A stretch of 9,230 nucleotides of DNA from Burkholderiales bacterium UBA6064 (GTDB lineage: Bacteria; Pseudomonadota; Gammaproteobacteria; Burkholderiales; Burkholderiaceae_B): positions 20,028-29,257 of the forward strand of contig DIYC01000152.1 in the NCBI GenBank assembly GCA_002428895.1. Direction: 5' to 3'. Position numbers and translations under genes: made by a program. Below, piece by piece: positions 1,248 to 8,987 of the stretch; position 1 is the first letter of the stretch, and every line of letters starts with the position of its first letter. The notes below the pieces were generated by a model. That model searched no databases, was not told the origin of the DNA, and saw only the letters and a program-made list of their open reading frames with translations.

Positions 1248-2103
1248 TTTGAGAAACAGTACGACGTGGTTTGGGCTGCTTATATCGGTGATACCCCCAA
1301 AGATATTGCTCAGGGTATTTTAAAATTAAGTCCGCCATCGCGGAATTAATCTGAGTAGCGGCTTGAACGGGATCTTCAGGCAAAGAATCTGGACCTTTAA
1401 AAAGATGCAAAACAGTACCCTTAAAGGGCTTGCGCTCACCCACAGCTAAAATAATTTGACACTGTGTTGCACGCATTAAAGAACCAACCAGAGTCATGGT
1501 GTAAGCGGGTTTTTCAAACATTGGGGCCCAAACCCCTTCGCCCAGAGCAGGCACTTGGTCAGGCAACAATCCGACCGATTGCTTTTTTTTCAGCGCCTTG
1601 AGTAATTGCCTTATGCCCCCTAAAGTGGTTGGCGCCAACTCCAGGTTAACTTGCTCCCGATGCTGTTGAATCAAACGTTGAATATTTTGTTTTCGATGAG
1701 GGCGATATAAGATGGTGATCGGCCTACGCGTTGCAAAAATTTGGGCTGCTGCCTCAAAAGAACCTAGATGAGGCGTTAAAAACAAAATACCTTTACCTTG
1801 TGCTTGGGCTTGCTCAACACACTCCCAGTTCTCAATCCAAACTGAGTGCCCCAACTGATTTTGCATATTTTTCCGCCAAAAAAAAGGCAACTCTAAAGTA
1901 CTCATACCGGCATGCATGGCACTACAAAGAACAAACCTTTTAGAGGGGCTTATGTTTTTACCTAAACAAACCGATAAATGACCATAGAAGGTTGACCGAT
2001 AACTTGACGAGACCAGCAAGGTGACTAAACCTAACAGACCACCCAAGGCGTGAAGCAACCAAAGAGGTAAAACAGAGAAAAATTTAAAAAATAATTGAAT
2101 CAT
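1237..2103 (-). CDS. Lipid A biosynthesis acyltransferase (LpxL/HtrB family), first copy
   Basis: Predicted inner-membrane late acyltransferase of lipid A synthesis, 288 residues. The N-terminus MIQLFFKFFSVLPLWLLHAL is the typical single membrane anchor of LpxL proteins. The catalytic motif is HLGSFE at 112-117, that is HX4E rather than the HX4D of its neighbour; both forms occur in the family. Further blocks are ILYRPHR (131-137), the GLLPDQVP box (178-185) and QYLWGYHRYK (266-275). It is the first gene of the leftward operon and is divergent from metK, with 188 bases between the start codons. No good SD is visible in front of the ATG; the nearest AGG is about 17 bases upstream. Its substrate position relative to the second copy is unknown. 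Adjacent LpxL paralogues beside metK and dapF are, from memory, a common betaproteobacterial arrangement. Confidence 0.9.
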   Translation of the reverse strand: MIQLFFKFFSVLPLWLLHALGGLLGLVTLLVSSSYRSTFYGHLSVCLGKNISPSKRFVLCSAMHAGMSTLELPFFWRKNMQNQLGHSVWIENWECVEQAQAQGKGILFLTPHLGSFEAAAQIFATRRPITILYRPHRKQNIQRLIQQHREQVNLELAPTTLGGIRQLLKALKKKQSVGLLPDQVPALGEGVWAPMFEKPAYTMTLVGSLMRATQCQIILAVGERKPFKGTVLHLFKGPDSLPEDPVQAATQINSAMADLILKYPEQYLWGYHRYKQPKPRRTVSQNDD

Positions 2104-2162
2104 TGACCGAATATTTTACCTGATGTAAAGAGTTTGAGTAAAAGTTTTCTGAATTAATGTTG

Positions 2163-2168
2163 TATGAT
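2163..2168 (+). promoter_or_regulatory. Possible -10 element of the metK promoter
   Basis: TATGAT is a good -10 match. Counting 7-8 bases downstream puts the transcript start near 2175, just at the 5' edge of the pseudoknot aptamer that begins at 2177, which is the placement expected for a riboswitch leader. No convincing -35 lies 16-18 bases upstream (the nearest TTGAGT, 2134-2139, is 23 bases away), so this is only a suggestion. Confidence 0.35.
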
Positions 2169-2176
2169 TAGTTAAT

Positions 2177-2229
2177 ATCGCTGAGTTAAAAGACAACTTG
2201 CGGAGCGATTCAAAAAAACCGCTAAAGCG
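2177..2229 (+). ncRNA. SAM-II-like riboswitch aptamer in the metK leader
   Basis: Seen: a classic H-type pseudoknot. P1 pairs ATCGCT (2177-2182) with AGCGAT (2204-2209), six perfect pairs. P2 pairs GCGG (2200-2203), lying directly against the 3' strand of P1, with CCGC (2219-2222). An A-rich linker (2210-2218) joins them, and GCTAAAGCG (2221-2229) ends the element. Known: SAM-II (metA motif) has this topology and conserved CGCUGAUUUAA, UUGC before the P1 3' strand, an A-rich linker, and a terminal GCUAAA. Here the matching segments are CGCTGAGTTAA, TTGC, TTCAAAAAAA and GCTAAA. Differences are one base in the first loop and one extra base between TTGC and AGCG. Inference: it binds SAM and lowers metK expression. 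The gene downstream makes SAM, which fits. Class assignment is from memory of the consensus, not from a covariance-model search. Confidence 0.72.
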
Positions 2230-2287
2230 TCGCCGAACTCACGTAAAAAACGGCTTCGCTGGCTCATAACCTTTTTTACGGAGTTTG
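2226..2287 (+). promoter_or_regulatory. metK expression platform: SD-sequestering hairpin and competing stem
   Basis: AACTC (2236-2240), a bulged A, then CGTAAAAAA (2242-2250) pair with TTTTTTACG (2272-2280) and GAGTT (2281-2285). That is 14 Watson-Crick pairs with one bulge, and C2234-G2287 and G2235-T2286 can extend it. The 3' arm contains the metK SD, GGAG at 2280-2283, 8 bases before the ATG, so the folded hairpin should block ribosome binding. A rival stem, AGCG/GCCG (2226-2229, 2232-2235) with CGGC/CGCT (2251-2254, 2257-2260), would trap the 5' arm in its loop and free the SD; its first base overlaps the end of the aptamer. This is a plausible translational OFF switch. The pairings are read directly; the switching is inferred. 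Confidence 0.65.
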
Positions 2288-2291
2288 CTAC

Positions 2292-3455
2292 ATGTCTCAC
2301 GATTTTCTTTTCACCTCAGAGTCTGTTTCCGAAGGCCATCCCGATAAAGTTGCAGATCAAATTTCTGATTCTATTCTCGATGCAATTTTAGAACAAGATC
2401 CCAAGGCACGTGTCGCCGCAGAAACCTTAACCAATACAGGTCTAGTGGTTTTGGCTGGCGAAATTACCGCCAACGCGAATGTCGACTATATCGATGTTGC
2501 TCGCGAAACCCTAAAACGAATTGGCTACGACAATTCCGACTTTGGCATCGACCACAAGGGTTGCGCGGTCATGGTTTGTTTTGACAAACAAAGCCCAGAT
2601 ATTGCTCAAGGCGTCAATAAAGCGCACGACAATGATCTTGAACAAGGCGCTGGCGACCAAGGCTTGATGTTTGGTTATGCCGTACGCGAAACACCCGAAT
2701 TAATGCCACTGACCATTAGTCTTGCCCATCAACTTGTTTTTCGTCAAAGCATGCTCAGAAAAGATGGTCGCCTACCCTGGTTAAGGCCAGACGCCAAATC
2801 ACAAGTCACCGTTCGATATGTAGACGGCAAACCCGATTCGATTGACACCGTGGTTTTATCAACTCAACATTCACCCGACATTCCACTTGCACAATTGCGA
2901 GAAGCAACCATTGAAGAGATTATCAAACCGGTTTTACCTCCAGAACTGATGAAAAAACCAATTAATTATCTGGTCAATCCAACGGGTCGGTTTGTCATTG
3001 GTGGCCCACAAGGCGACTGCGGTCTAACTGGCAGAAAAATTATTGTCGACACCTATGGCGGTGCTGCTCCTCATGGTGGCGGTGCATTTTCTGGCAAAGA
3101 CCCCTCCAAAGTAGGCCGTTCGGCAGCTTATGCGGACCGTTATGTCGCCAAAAACATAGTTGCTGCAGGTTTAGCTGAACGTTGTTTGGTCCAAGTGTCT
3201 TATGCAATTGGTGTTTCTCGGCCCACCTCAATTATGGTGAACACCTTTGGTACAGGAAAAATATCCGATAGCGCAATTGTCGAGCTAATTGGGGCTCACT
3301 TTGACCTTAGACCCAAAGGAATCGTTCAAATGCTCAACTTACTACGGCCAATTTATAGCAAAACCGCAGCCTATGGTCATTTTGGTCGCGAAGAACCTGA
3401 ATTTACCTGGGAAAAAACAGACAAAGCACAACAACTTAAAAACGCGATTTCTTAA
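2292..3455 (+). CDS. metK: S-adenosylmethionine synthetase (methionine adenosyltransferase)
   Basis: MetK makes SAM from methionine and ATP, releasing phosphate and diphosphate; it is a cytoplasmic tetramer in E. coli. The protein has 387 residues, the normal length. Motifs: [18 protein letters not shown] (9-26, with the ATP/Mg residues His16 and Asp18), [12 protein letters not shown] (119-130), [13 protein letters not shown] (161-173), GDCGLTGRK (241-249) and [12 protein letters not shown] (262-273), ending in the usual AAYGHFGRE region. An oddity: the block usually reading KVDRSAAY is KVGRSAAY here, so residue 275 is Gly (codon GGC) where E. coli has the active-site Asp known as D271; one base change would explain it. 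All other active-site residues I can place are present. The start is supported by GGAG 8 bases upstream and the family N-terminus. The leader carries a SAM-II-like element, and a terminator follows. Confidence 0.97.
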
Positions 3456-3521: not shown

Positions 3522-3536
3522 GATAAACTTCTGCAA

Positions 3537-3600
3537 GTTCGAGGAGCGTTGCGGCCTTTTTAAAAGGTTAGGCTCGAACATAAATTAAAACGGCGCTCAC
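3537..3600 (+). ncRNA. S-adenosylhomocysteine (SAH) riboswitch in the ahcY leader
   Basis: The conserved core is easy to read: GAGGAGCGTTGCG (3541-3553), GGCTCG (3571-3576) and AACGGCGCTCAC (3589-3600). P1 is GTTCGAG (3537-3543) with CTCGAAC (3573-3579), seven perfect pairs. P2 is GGCCTTT (3553-3559) with AAAGGTT (3563-3569). The pseudoknot P4 is GAGCGT (3544-3549) with GCGCTC (3593-3598). Known SAH riboswitches sit upstream of ahcY in betaproteobacteria and pseudomonads and turn expression on when SAH accumulates. Position, sequence and downstream gene all agree. Confidence 0.95.
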
Positions 3601-3635
3601 GCACTTTTCTTTTAACTGTTTAAAGGAGGGCGTGA
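3597..3635 (+). promoter_or_regulatory. ahcY SD and SD-enclosing hairpin that competes with the SAH pseudoknot
   Basis: AAGGAGG (3623-3629) is a near-perfect SD, 7 bases before the ahcY ATG at 3637. TCACGC (3597-3602) is an exact complement of GCGTGA (3630-3635), closing a hairpin that encloses the SD and pairs up to the base next to it. Inside, CTTT (3609-3612) can also pair with AAAG (3622-3625) at the SD edge. Bases 3597-3598 are shared with riboswitch pseudoknot P4 (3593-3598), so the two folds exclude each other. The expected logic is that SAH-bound P4 leaves the SD open. Confidence 0.6.
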
Positions 3636-6888: not shown

Positions 6889-7236
6889 ATGAAAAAAGTA
6901 AAGCATAACTTATACCTATCCTATTTATTAAAAAGTCGCGAGAATGCAACATTGATCAACTTATCAGTCATATTAAATAAAATAATCCGTCACAATAAAA
7001 TAACTCGATTTTCATCCGCAAGAGTCTATACGCTGATGAGTTTATGGGAAGAAGTGAAAAGCGCAGTATGTCAAATAAAATCAGAAAATGAAATTCTGAT
7101 TTTTGCCGTATTTAAACTGGAGTGCCTGAAGCTGAAAACGAAACTCAATCACTTTACTTTACGTTCAAAAATTTTTATCAAACCAACTCAACAGCTGTGT
7201 TGCGTGCTTCGTCACGAACAAACTACGGCTGCGTAA
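6889..7236 (+). CDS. Hypothetical small basic protein of unknown function (doubtful)
   Basis: An open frame of 115 codons, beginning MKKVKHNLYLSYLLKSREN. I do not recognise it. The product would be basic and leucine/isoleucine/lysine-rich with no signal peptide, no clear membrane helix and no known motif. No SD precedes the ATG; the bases before it are CAATGCTCCGAC. In favour of coding: a stop-free run of this length in DNA of about one-third GC is uncommon by chance, and it occupies an otherwise empty gap. Against: it contains a 10-bp perfect hairpin and its C-terminus lies in a locally GC-richer patch. It could be a remnant of a lost gene. Treat as low confidence. Confidence 0.25.
   Translation: MKKVKHNLYLSYLLKSRENATLINLSVILNKIIRHNKITRFSSARVYTLMSLWEEVKSAVCQIKSENEILIFAVFKLECLKLKTKLNHFTLRSKIFIKPTQQLCCVLRHEQTTAA
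7077..7104 (+). repeat. Perfect 10-bp inverted repeat with short T tail
   Basis: AAAATCAGAA (7077-7086) and TTCTGATTTT (7094-7103) are exact complements around the 7-base loop AATGAAA, followed by one more T. It resembles a weak AT-rich terminator or a regulator-binding site upstream of the transporter gene, and is symmetrical enough to act on both strands. It lies inside the doubtful small open frame, which argues a little against that frame being coding. Confidence 0.45.
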
Positions 7237-7295
7237 GGTCAGATATTAAAAACAAAGAAATAAAGTTGAAGTCGAAAAAATATAGAGAAAATGGA

Positions 7296-8987
7296 ATGAC
7301 TCTGTTTTGCAAATTTTTACAATTTTTTTTGCTGTTCAAAATAATTCTTTTTTCCCATGAGATTATGGCTCAATCTCTACCCTCAACGATCGACCCCGGT
7401 CGAGTTGAAAAGTTCTTCGATCCAAATTTACAGAAATTTCCGGATACACAGGAAGAACAGCAAAATGAATTTGTTTCAGAACCTCCCGCAGGGGCAGAAA
7501 ATGTGAAATTTGTGCTTAAGGAAGTACGAATCACAGGCATGTCGAAATTTTCTGATGCTGATTTTAAACAGATTTACCAACCCTTTTTGAATACAGAAAT
7601 TACGCTTAATCTTGTTTGGAATTTTGCTGCGCAAATTACGAACATGTATAAAAAGCAAGGTTATTTTTTATCGAGAGCTTTTATTCCTAAACAAGAAATT
7701 GATAATGGTTTTATTAAAATTGAGGTGTATGAAGGCTACTTATCTGAAATCGTTTTTCCAGAAGCAGATCAAATTGGTATTCGAAACATTCATCGTTACA
7801 TGAATCAAATTTTGATGGAACGACCAACACGTTTTTCTACGCTCGAATCATTTTTACTGTTGCTGAATGATTTACCCGGACATCGATTTCGATCGTATAT
7901 TGAACCTGCTGTTGACCCAAGCAACGGGAAAAATACTTCTAAAGTGATCATTTCACGTGAAATTCAAAAAAAACAATCTAGCTTATTGTGGGATATAAGC
8001 GGATCCGATCTAGTAGGTAAAAACATTTTCAGATTAGCTCACTCAGGTAGCTATTTACCAAGCGGTCAAACTGAAATTGTAGTGCTAGCTGCTTCACCAA
8101 ATGGCGAATTAACGCAATACAGTTTAAGTCAATCTTTTCCGATTGATCTCAAGACATCAATTGAATTGGCGCTTAGCCGAACTACTGTTAGTCCAGGCGG
8201 GTCGTTAGAAGAACTTAAAATTGAAGGCAATTCAATATCACTAGACCTCGCAGCGGTCTGGAAAATTATGCGTACACGTCAAGAAAACTTAAACTTAACT
8301 ATCGGTATTCCAATCAAAACAACACGATCTGATATTTTAGATAATGTTGCATTAGTTCGGGAACGTGTTAGAGCCATTTCCACTAAGCTGCATTATGATT
8401 TAACGCAGTCTAACCGAATACATTCGGTGGATATAGGGTTAACGAAAGGTTTACAAATATCTGGAAATAGCAAAATTAGTGATACTGGTTTGTCTCGAGC
8501 CAATGCTGACCCTGACTTCACAATATTCAATCTAGACTACATGCTAACCCAGCAACTGTCTAAAGAATTAAACTTAATTTGGGCTCTTTCAGCGCAACTG
8601 GCAACAACACCTTTGCATTCTTTTAATGAATTTGGTTATGGCGGCAGTGAATATGGGCGAGCATATAATTCCTCCCAGATCACGGGAGATCACGGAGTAT
8701 CAACCCGCTTAGAACTCCGTCATACTGGCTTTAGATTGCCTCTTTTATTTTCTCAACTTGTACCTTACTCATTTTATGATACAGGCCGTGTTTGGAACAT
8801 TAATGATGCAACTGATTTAGATGAGTCTGCTTCCTCTTTTGGAGTCGGTGGATACCTTTCCAACCAGAAGGGTTTTGATGTTAATTTAGGGTATGCGTTT
8901 AGAAATCGAGTCCATTTGAGTGACTCACAAAATATAGAAAACACGCGTTCTGGTCGAGTTCTATTTCAGTTCAATTTACGTTTTTAA
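7296..8987 (+). CDS. ShlB/FhaC/HecB-family two-partner-secretion outer-membrane transporter (TpsB)
   Basis: TpsB proteins are 16-strand beta barrels with two periplasmic POTRA domains that secrete, and sometimes activate, a large partner exoprotein. From the ATG at 7296 the protein has 563 residues, a usual family length. A signal peptide covers 1-25 (MTLFCKFLQFFLLFKIILFS, likely cleavage IMA|QS). A hydrophilic linker runs from 26 to about 70. POTRA 1 is at about 70-152 (VLKEVRITGMSKFSDADF to YEGYLSEI) and POTRA 2 at about 153-222. The barrel follows, with the loop-6 motif GGSEYGRAY (449-457; Arg455 matches the conserved VRGY/GRGY arginine, with Ala in place of Gly) and C-terminal Phe. The frame is open back to 7122, but only 7296 yields a signal peptide and it has GAG 8 bases upstream. 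No secreted partner is complete in the window. Confidence 0.88.
   Translation: MTLFCKFLQFFLLFKIILFSHEIMAQSLPSTIDPGRVEKFFDPNLQKFPDTQEEQQNEFVSEPPAGAENVKFVLKEVRITGMSKFSDADFKQIYQPFLNTEITLNLVWNFAAQITNMYKKQGYFLSRAFIPKQEIDNGFIKIEVYEGYLSEIVFPEADQIGIRNIHRYMNQILMERPTRFSTLESFLLLLNDLPGHRFRSYIEPAVDPSNGKNTSKVIISREIQKKQSSLLWDISGSDLVGKNIFRLAHSGSYLPSGQTEIVVLAASPNGELTQYSLSQSFPIDLKTSIELALSRTTVSPGGSLEELKIEGNSISLDLAAVWKIMRTRQENLNLTIGIPIKTTRSDILDNVALVRERVRAISTKLHYDLTQSNRIHSVDIGLTKGLQISGNSKISDTGLSRANADPDFTIFNLDYMLTQQLSKELNLIWALSAQLATTPLHSFNEFGYGGSEYGRAYNSSQITGDHGVSTRLELRHTGFRLPLLFSQLVPYSFYDTGRVWNINDATDLDESASSFGVGGYLSNQKGFDVNLGYAFRNRVHLSDSQNIENTRSGRVLFQFNLRF

Follow-up and report, generated by a model that had tools for sequence, protein, structure and literature searches.

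The metK leader of a betaproteobacterial genome carries a covarying pseudoknot with the architecture of SAM-II, in which nearly all SAM-contact nucleotides are kept. We consider it likely that this RNA binds SAM, upon which metK translation would be switched off, and that it represents a new translational subtype of the SAM-II group instead of plain SAM-II. Within the window (the whole stretch of DNA that was analysed, 9,230 nt) three helices and a UUGC...GCUAAA core are found with metK downstream, and in most relatives a -10 box lies upstream; SAM binding and the OFF direction would follow from the pocket and the metK context. On two counts, the nucleotide at position 10 and the Rfam score, the leader falls outside SAM-II, and it is for this reason that we file it as a new translational subtype within the SAM-II group.

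SAM-dependent methylation has its entry point in SAM synthetase, and the control of this enzyme in betaproteobacteria is recorded as unknown by Leyn et al. 2014 (PMC4239095), who sought metK regulation in beta-proteobacteria and found none. For a group to which Cupriavidus, Polynucleobacter and Variovorax belong, among others, the leader would provide an answer that can be tested directly. Furthermore, it is a natural example of U replaced by G in a SAM pocket that has been studied in detail, and it belongs to a widespread subtype that the Rfam SAM-II model misses.

Architecture of the aptamer

The aptamer is an H-type pseudoknot (Table 1), in which GAGTTAA occupies 2183-2189, TTGC 2198-2201 and GCTAAA 2221-2226. 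An earlier, sequence-only reading of this DNA had proposed P1 (ATCGCT/AGCGAT), P2 (GCGG/CCGC), L1, TTGC and GCTAAA, and every one of these blocks lies where it had been placed. Its extent of 2177-2229 had the core right and was slightly short, as the third helix P2a (2192-2194/2229-2231) was overlooked and the element ends at 2231. Two departures from the consensus that it noticed, a G in loop 1 and an extra base between TTGC and the P1 3' strand, are both real according to the RF00521 alignment. The second means that two nucleotides, compared to one in SAM-II, separate C23 from the P1 3' strand, which amounts to one more P2b pair; in one leader (L081) the spacing from TTGC to P1 reads by eye as one nucleotide, so that the extra one is not universal. 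Most leaders have GAC/GUC as P2a, and another group has GAAC/GUUC. Plain nested folding of the leader does not see the element (z -0.75), because it is a pseudoknot, and such folding is uninformative here.

Table 1. Features of the metK leader and its surroundings (window coordinates)
Feature	Position	Strand	Basis or remark
-10 promoter-like box TATGAT	2163..2168	+	8 nt before P1
Whole aptamer, SAM-II-like H-type pseudoknot (P1, P2b, P2a)	2177..2231	+	covariation, independent model R2, RF00521 in register
P1 5' strand AUCGCU	2177..2182	+	partner 2204-2209; 4 of 6 pairs with both-side changes in relatives
L1 third strand GAGUUAA	2183..2189	+	G2185 at the place of SAM-II U10; U2186, U2187 = U11, U12; numbering via SAM-II alignment
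P2a 5' strand GAC	2192..2194	+	partner 2229-2231
UUGCGG: U2198, U2199 (= SAM-II U20, U21) and P2b 5' strand 2200-2203	2198..2203	+	P2b partner 2219-2222
P1 3' strand AGCGAU	2204..2209	+	covariation over 44 leaders
P2b 3' strand CCGC (2219-2222), then U2223, A2224, A2225, A2226 (= U44, A45, A46, A47, SAM contacts of SAM-II)	2219..2226	+	window letters
P2a 3' strand GUC	2229..2231	+	also within the strand claimed by the predicted competing stem
5' arm of predicted anti-aptamer (ON) stem AGCG-UC-GCCG	2226..2235	+	pairs 2251-2260, -11.0 kcal/mol
Anti-Shine-Dalgarno arm AACUCACGUAAAAAA of predicted OFF hairpin	2236..2250	+	pairs 2272-2285, -13.2 kcal/mol
3' arm of predicted ON stem CGGC-UU-CGCU	2251..2260	+	duplex and fold prediction
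Shine-Dalgarno arm UUUUUUACGGAGUU of predicted OFF hairpin	2272..2285	+	GGAG at 2280-2283
metK, methionine adenosyltransferase (SAM synthetase)	2292..3455	+	NCBIfam TIGR01034 596.5 bits, cut-off 309.4
SAH riboswitch (known family), between metK and ahcY	3535..3605	+	RF01057 59.2 bits, cut-off 37; context

Covariation of the three helices

In an alignment of 44 metK leaders (A1, window included), 97.6% of the 572 cells of the three helices are paired, against 20-48% when the partners are slid. Double changes occur in 69 cells, where shuffled alignments give 17.0 +/- 5.1 and none out of 500 reaches 69; likewise, the covariation score of A1 is 0.364 compared to 0.188 in the shuffles, a value that again none of the 500 attains. 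One of the five measures, the number of further pair types in A1, shows no excess, being reached by 356 of the 500 shuffles. The inner two P2b pairs are invariant in A1, and the search pattern had fixed them. The P2a extension known from SAM-II is present with 3-4 bp, and all of its cells are paired.

Mapping the leader pair types onto a tree of 93 MetK proteins, that of the window included, yields 50 double-change events in which pairing is kept: 34 in P1, 13 in the outer P2b pairs and 3 in P2a. These counts come from a single Fitch parsimony reconstruction with ties broken arbitrarily. The pseudoknot helices P2b and P2a together show 16 double events and no broken one; in P1, pairing is lost or gained in 18 events, and its outermost pair accounts for 13 of these. 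The P1 hairpin and the P2b pseudoknot that make up the H-type fold of SAM-II are found in both A1 and the MetK tree. Compensatory changes in P1 and P2, the absence of which would have spoken against the SAM-II topology proposed earlier, are abundant in the 44 leaders and in the 50 tree events, and that topology is borne out.

These paired changes in three helices act at the level of the RNA, which argues against the element being a protein operator, or a metK mRNA leader or processing signal, that is conserved without metabolite binding, as do the base-by-base match to a known ligand pocket and the kinship with SAM-II sites accepted by Rfam that are described below. Such an element has some appeal in that MetJ, and SamR in Xanthomonadales, target metK in other groups (PMC4239095), and that ligand binding is a prediction here, yet we regard it as very improbable.

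Scores of Rfam and leader-derived models

The SAM-II model RF00521 aligns with the leader in register over 2168-2245, with 17.7 bits against a cut-off of 36 and an E-value of 0.06 in a scan of 217 nt. In the window's own genome a chance site reaches 18.3 bits with the same model, as high as the leader, which means that Rfam alone neither proves nor finds the element. In the Rfam scan of the whole window at E<=1 the SAH riboswitch is the sole entry and the leader element is not listed; by that scan alone, the finding would have been discarded. In the comparison with Rfam SAM-II and SAM-V that had been suggested as a check on the leader, the former aligns in register and below its cut-off, and the latter is not listed. 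Among relatives, 13 of the 13 metK loci scanned likewise lack an RF00521 match at E<=1. SAM-V, whose accession we take to be RF01826, is not listed in the Rfam scans of the window, the narrow leader, the 13 metK loci and 20 further stretches, nor is SAM/SAH (RF01727) in those of the window, the narrow leader and the 13 metK loci.

A covariance model with the window as its first row (R1) gives the window 77.6 bits, which proves nothing, as the window is part of the model. A second model (R2) was therefore built from 35 relatives' leaders, leaving out the window as well as any locus known to belong to its genus; named relatives without a known genus could be of that genus. R2 finds 2174-2232 of the window with 77.2 bits (E 3e-22 in 65 kb), and the leader element is far beyond chance. 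In the window's own genome R1 has a single strong site, the next best scoring 18.6 bits.

A second site in the window, at 7856-7949, scores 15.2 bits with R1 (E 0.003, filters off) and 11.6 with R2; it lies within an ORF and was taken as chance. An ORF at 7122-8987 (621 aa), which may encode an outer-membrane two-partner-secretion transporter, has no NCBIfam match at 1e-5.

Distribution among metK loci

Two sets of loci were assembled: the best 80 of 593 stretches obtained by searching named genome contigs with MetK, and 29 further loci fetched after metK had been found in 60 of 60 related genomes. The resulting 109 loci are the nearest by MetK among those listed, duplicates kept. A complete element stands before metK in 94 of these 109 (92 by the search pattern, L101 and L102 by model), and one incomplete copy is ended by a contig edge (L046). 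With both the pattern and R1, the element was not found in 14 of the 109: L002, L003, L015, L029, L036, L039, L043, L071, L098, L099, L100, L105, L107 and L108. Among named loci, those without it include three of Gallionella (L002, L039, L043) and one of a Nitrosomonadales MAG (L071), and those with it Cupriavidus, Paraburkholderia, Caballeronia, Polynucleobacter, Variovorax, Oxalobacter, Undibacterium, Achromobacter and others. The betaproteobacterial host suggested by the sequence-only reading is confirmed, and its "divergent SAM-II subtype" holds in a refined form, as the metK leader of most sampled relatives and not the oddity of a single genome.

The search pattern fixed CTTGC, GC[T/C]AAAG and most of L1, excluded GATTTA, and left P1, the outer P2b pairs and P2a free. 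Since the pattern had fixed them, the core letters of the 93 leaders it found (the window's among them) are no independent measure of conservation; where the pattern allowed a choice, in GC[T/C]AAAG, T rather than C is found in 92 of the 93. R1, in which no letters are fixed, was run on the 17 loci without a pattern match and added only L101, L102 and the incomplete L046; the only other R1 site, in L098, scores 10.1 bits and lies away from the leader. The L102 leader (minus strand, about 2713-2764 and just upstream) appears by eye to have an extra small hairpin inserted in aptamer loop L1.

Of 89 distinct metK leaders, 80 have, 3-12 nt upstream of P1, a -10 box with 5 or 6 of 6 matches, as opposed to 5.6% of shuffled upstream sequences, and the gap from box to P1 is 6 or 7 in 75 of the 86 leaders with at least 4 matches. 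With the box directly before P1, transcription would start with the aptamer or immediately upstream of it. A stricter sigma-70 scan of the window gives no site on this strand. SAM-II has likewise been described with a promoter immediately ahead of P1 (PMC1273637).

Canonical SAM-II sites and tandem arrangements

Across the wider group, R1 has matches at E<=0.001 in 130 of 200 genomes of the order and in 96 of 274 of the class, many of them at weaker scores; the weaker matches that were inspected proved to be canonical-type SAM-II-like sites. When RF00521 is applied to these 200 genomes of the order, it finds matches in 87 at E<=0.001 and in 36 above its cut-off, none of them in the window's genome; in the 12 of those 87 genomes with a known metK place, no RF00521 match lies at metK (by eye).

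The 20 stretches that were fetched contain eight single sites and 12 tandem pairs. The single sites read GATTTGA, followed by a terminator-like hairpin (by eye), and stand before metZ (L158-L162, L165) or a gene of the cystathionine gamma-synthase family (L157). RF00521 matches all eight at E<=1 and accepts L157, L164 (52.5 bits) and L165 (45.2 bits). R1 and R2 also pick up canonical SAM-II, some of it accepted by Rfam, and this joins the two aptamer types. The canonical sites before metZ probably correspond to the metXZ element that Leyn et al. described (PMC4239095).

In a tandem pair, a canonical-type SAM-II-like site with a terminator-like hairpin is followed, at a spacing of 30-143 nt (12 pairs), by an aptamer of the metK type, behind which lies a ribosome site. 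RF00521 recognises the first aptamer in 10 of the 12 pairs, one of them (L151) above the cut-off, and the second in none of the 12.

Several observations were made around these loci. Tandems are found in L147-L156, L163 and L166, and also in L112, L117, L168-L170 and L173. Directly behind 11 of them (L117, L147-L155, L163) lies a gene for a small protein of 95-112 aa that starts with M[YF]DC (e.g. L147:806-1126), for which no Pfam match was found in the four tested and no NCBIfam match in the three tested; a MATE exporter gene comes next in all four loci scanned (L147, L152-L154). In L170 the tandem precedes a gene for a MoxR-type AAA ATPase (1621-3054; Pfam AAA_5, bpMoxR), which is not obviously a methionine gene. 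One genome of the class outside the order (G475) has ten R1 matches, forming five tandem pairs. Lastly, RF02424 (Bp2_287, a Burkholderia sRNA) gives sub-cut-off matches on the opposite strand over the SAM-II leader in L150, L152, L154, L155, L156, L163 and L165, which suggests that this family may be an antisense reading of such a leader.

The putative SAM pocket and position 10

In the SAM-II structure, U44 reads the adenine, A47 the amino acid and G22 a hydroxyl, U11 and U21 face the sulfonium, and the triples U11-A45-U21 and U12-A46-U20 are formed (PMC3764141); the SAM-V structure agrees with these contact assignments (PMC6061858). The window keeps these contacts as U2223 (U44), A2226 (A47), G2200 (G22), U2186 (U11) and U2199 (U21), and judged by its letters against the two structures (PMC3764141, PMC6061858) it retains U11, U12, U20, U21, G22, C23, G42, C43, U44, A45, A46 and A47. 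U10, described as "completely conserved" in SAM-II (PMC3764141), is replaced by G2185.

This G is nearly fixed before metK, being found in 91 of the 93 pattern-found leaders, of which one has U (L038) and one A (L052); GAGTTA as a whole occurs in 88 of the 93. The two leaders that the model added carry G (L102) and U (L101, GATTTAA). So could the G re-tune the pocket, such that the metK aptamer poorly discriminates SAH or prefers another SAM-related ligand? Its near-fixation would fit, as would the finding that the SAM-V equivalent of U10 contributes a single hydrogen bond to the uridine by which the SAM adenine is read (PMC6061858), and variant SAM-I switches have changed their ligand to spermidine (PMC10853860). 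Conversely, both sulfonium-facing uridines and the adenine- and amino-acid-binding bases are kept, and the metK context points to SAM. Moreover, the 18 aptamers that stand second in a tandem, by our reading, have U in 11 cases and G in five (three from one family), with two otherwise changed. This mixture of G and U weakens the case for a new ligand, and together with the U before metK in L101 and L038 makes the G look like a tolerated swap. We therefore hold a re-tuned specificity to be improbable, and SAM remains the ligand we expect.

A predicted expression platform between aptamer and metK

The sequence-only reading had an aptamer directly before metK, a placement that the TIGR01034 match confirms, and overlooked the expression platform between the two. 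This platform probably consists of two competing hairpins controlling a remote ribosome site. At high SAM, the third strand GAGUUAA would dock onto P2b while P2a holds GCGUC, and the anti-aptamer stem would be unable to form; the anti-Shine-Dalgarno arm, thus freed, would pair with 2272-2285 and hide GGAG. At low SAM, the anti-aptamer stem would be the first to form during transcription, the anti-Shine-Dalgarno arm would be trapped in its loop, and GGAG would be left open. In the window, the predicted ON stem uses the P2a strand for pairing and has the anti-Shine-Dalgarno arm between its two arms.

Across leaders, the platform complementarity is moderate. In 91 distinct leaders the Shine-Dalgarno duplex has a mean of -13.0 kcal/mol compared to -9.3 in shuffled sequences, with 46% at p<=0.05, 54% falling short of it and a median p of 0.083; for the anti-P2a duplex these values are -13.1 and -10.2 kcal/mol, 33%, 67% and 0.117. 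When the window is folded together with 11 leaders of its genus, the OFF hairpin emerges as the consensus; 4 of its 18 pairs show a double change with pairing kept, and some cells are broken. In 12 leaders of Burkholderia, Paraburkholderia, Pandoraea and kin, RNAalifold finds a stem of the ON type as the consensus, and none of its 11 pairs has a double change. Equilibrium folding of the window shows no bistability, as the unpaired probability of the Shine-Dalgarno is <0.01 whether or not the P2a strand is free. Since the OFF hairpin prevails even with the P2a strand free, the switch would need co-transcriptional, kinetic folding.

The moderate statistics and this dominance of the OFF hairpin at equilibrium would also fit the same fold with SAM as its ligand acting by direct occlusion, mRNA decay or Rho, and direct occlusion of the ribosome site is known for translational SAM-II and SAM-V (PMC6061858, PMC10907184). 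However, GGAG lies about 50 nt (48) past the P2a end at 2231, which makes direct occlusion unavailable and means that the Shine-Dalgarno is not located inside P2a as in SAM-V; furthermore, the anti-Shine-Dalgarno hairpin is a genus consensus, and the duplexes are stronger than shuffles over all leaders. Control without the two hairpins is therefore unlikely in our view, although less so than a changed ligand, and we prefer the hairpin exchange.

No terminator-like site was found in the window's leader. A local platform hairpin with the loop AAC or AACGC occurs in 44 of 92 leaders by a loose pattern. Downstream, the probable SAM OFF switch and the SAH riboswitch share one metK-ahcY-tlyA-like-metF cluster, which sets control by the two side by side within a single group of genes.

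Comparison with known systems

In the open-access literature searched, there is no report of the metK element, nor do the accessible parts of PMC7736828, PMC2864571, PMC2258182, PMC8632094, PMC10853860, PMC13273304, PMC10907184 and PMC12452182 contain it; our best reading is that the metK subtype is uncatalogued in the open literature searched. A bolder interpretation, which we put forward tentatively and at somewhat less than even chances, is that the metK leaders form a separate class of the SAM-II group, as SAM-V does. They would combine a translational aptamer, a re-tuned pocket (G10 and the extra P2b pair) and a remote hairpin-exchange platform, serving as the standing SAM-synthetase control of Betaproteobacteria. 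The same aptamer would also have been recruited into tandem SAM switches before other genes, including those of the small protein and the MATE exporter, as their second, translational module.

SAM-II itself (RF00521, SAM_alpha; the metA motif) shares with the metK leader the H-type P1/P2b/P2a fold, the L1 third strand, UUGC...GCUAAA, a gene of SAM metabolism and a promoter just before P1 (PMC1273637). The leader differs in having G in place of U10 and two nucleotides in place of one between C23 and P1, in scoring below half of the Rfam cut-off (17.7 of 36 bits), in preceding metK and not metA, metX or metY, and in its remote Shine-Dalgarno platform, where SAM-II has a terminator or direct occlusion. 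While SAM-II had been put down as best known from alphaproteobacteria, it is already on record in beta-proteobacteria, with Bordetella bronchiseptica among the sequences (PMC1273637); the metK subtype is not, in the open literature searched. SAM-V has the same binding core and is a translational OFF switch (PMC6061858), as predicted for the metK leader, which in contrast lacks an Rfam SAM-V match, has its ribosome site outside P2a and is betaproteobacterial, whereas SAM-V belongs to marine alphaproteobacteria and Bacteroidetes.

The metXZ RNA element of beta-proteobacteria (Leyn et al. 2014, PMC4239095) is likewise a pseudoknot leader of methionine genes in the same class. By its description, on which this comparison is based, it has six conserved blocks; it differs in having a terminator and in standing before metX or metZ. 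SAM/SAH (RF01727) resembles the metK leader as a small RNA before metK in a proteobacterial group, but is limited to Rhodobacterales in PMC2864571. The closest parallel to the tandems is found in the SAM-II/SAM-II and SAM-II/SAM-V bi-mechanism switches, where the first aptamer has a terminator and the second acts on the ribosome site (PMC9481103). Tandem SAM-II with a second, ribosome-site platform has thus been described in general; here the second aptamer is of the metK type, and, in contrast to those bi-mechanism tandems, the translational aptamer before metK stands alone.
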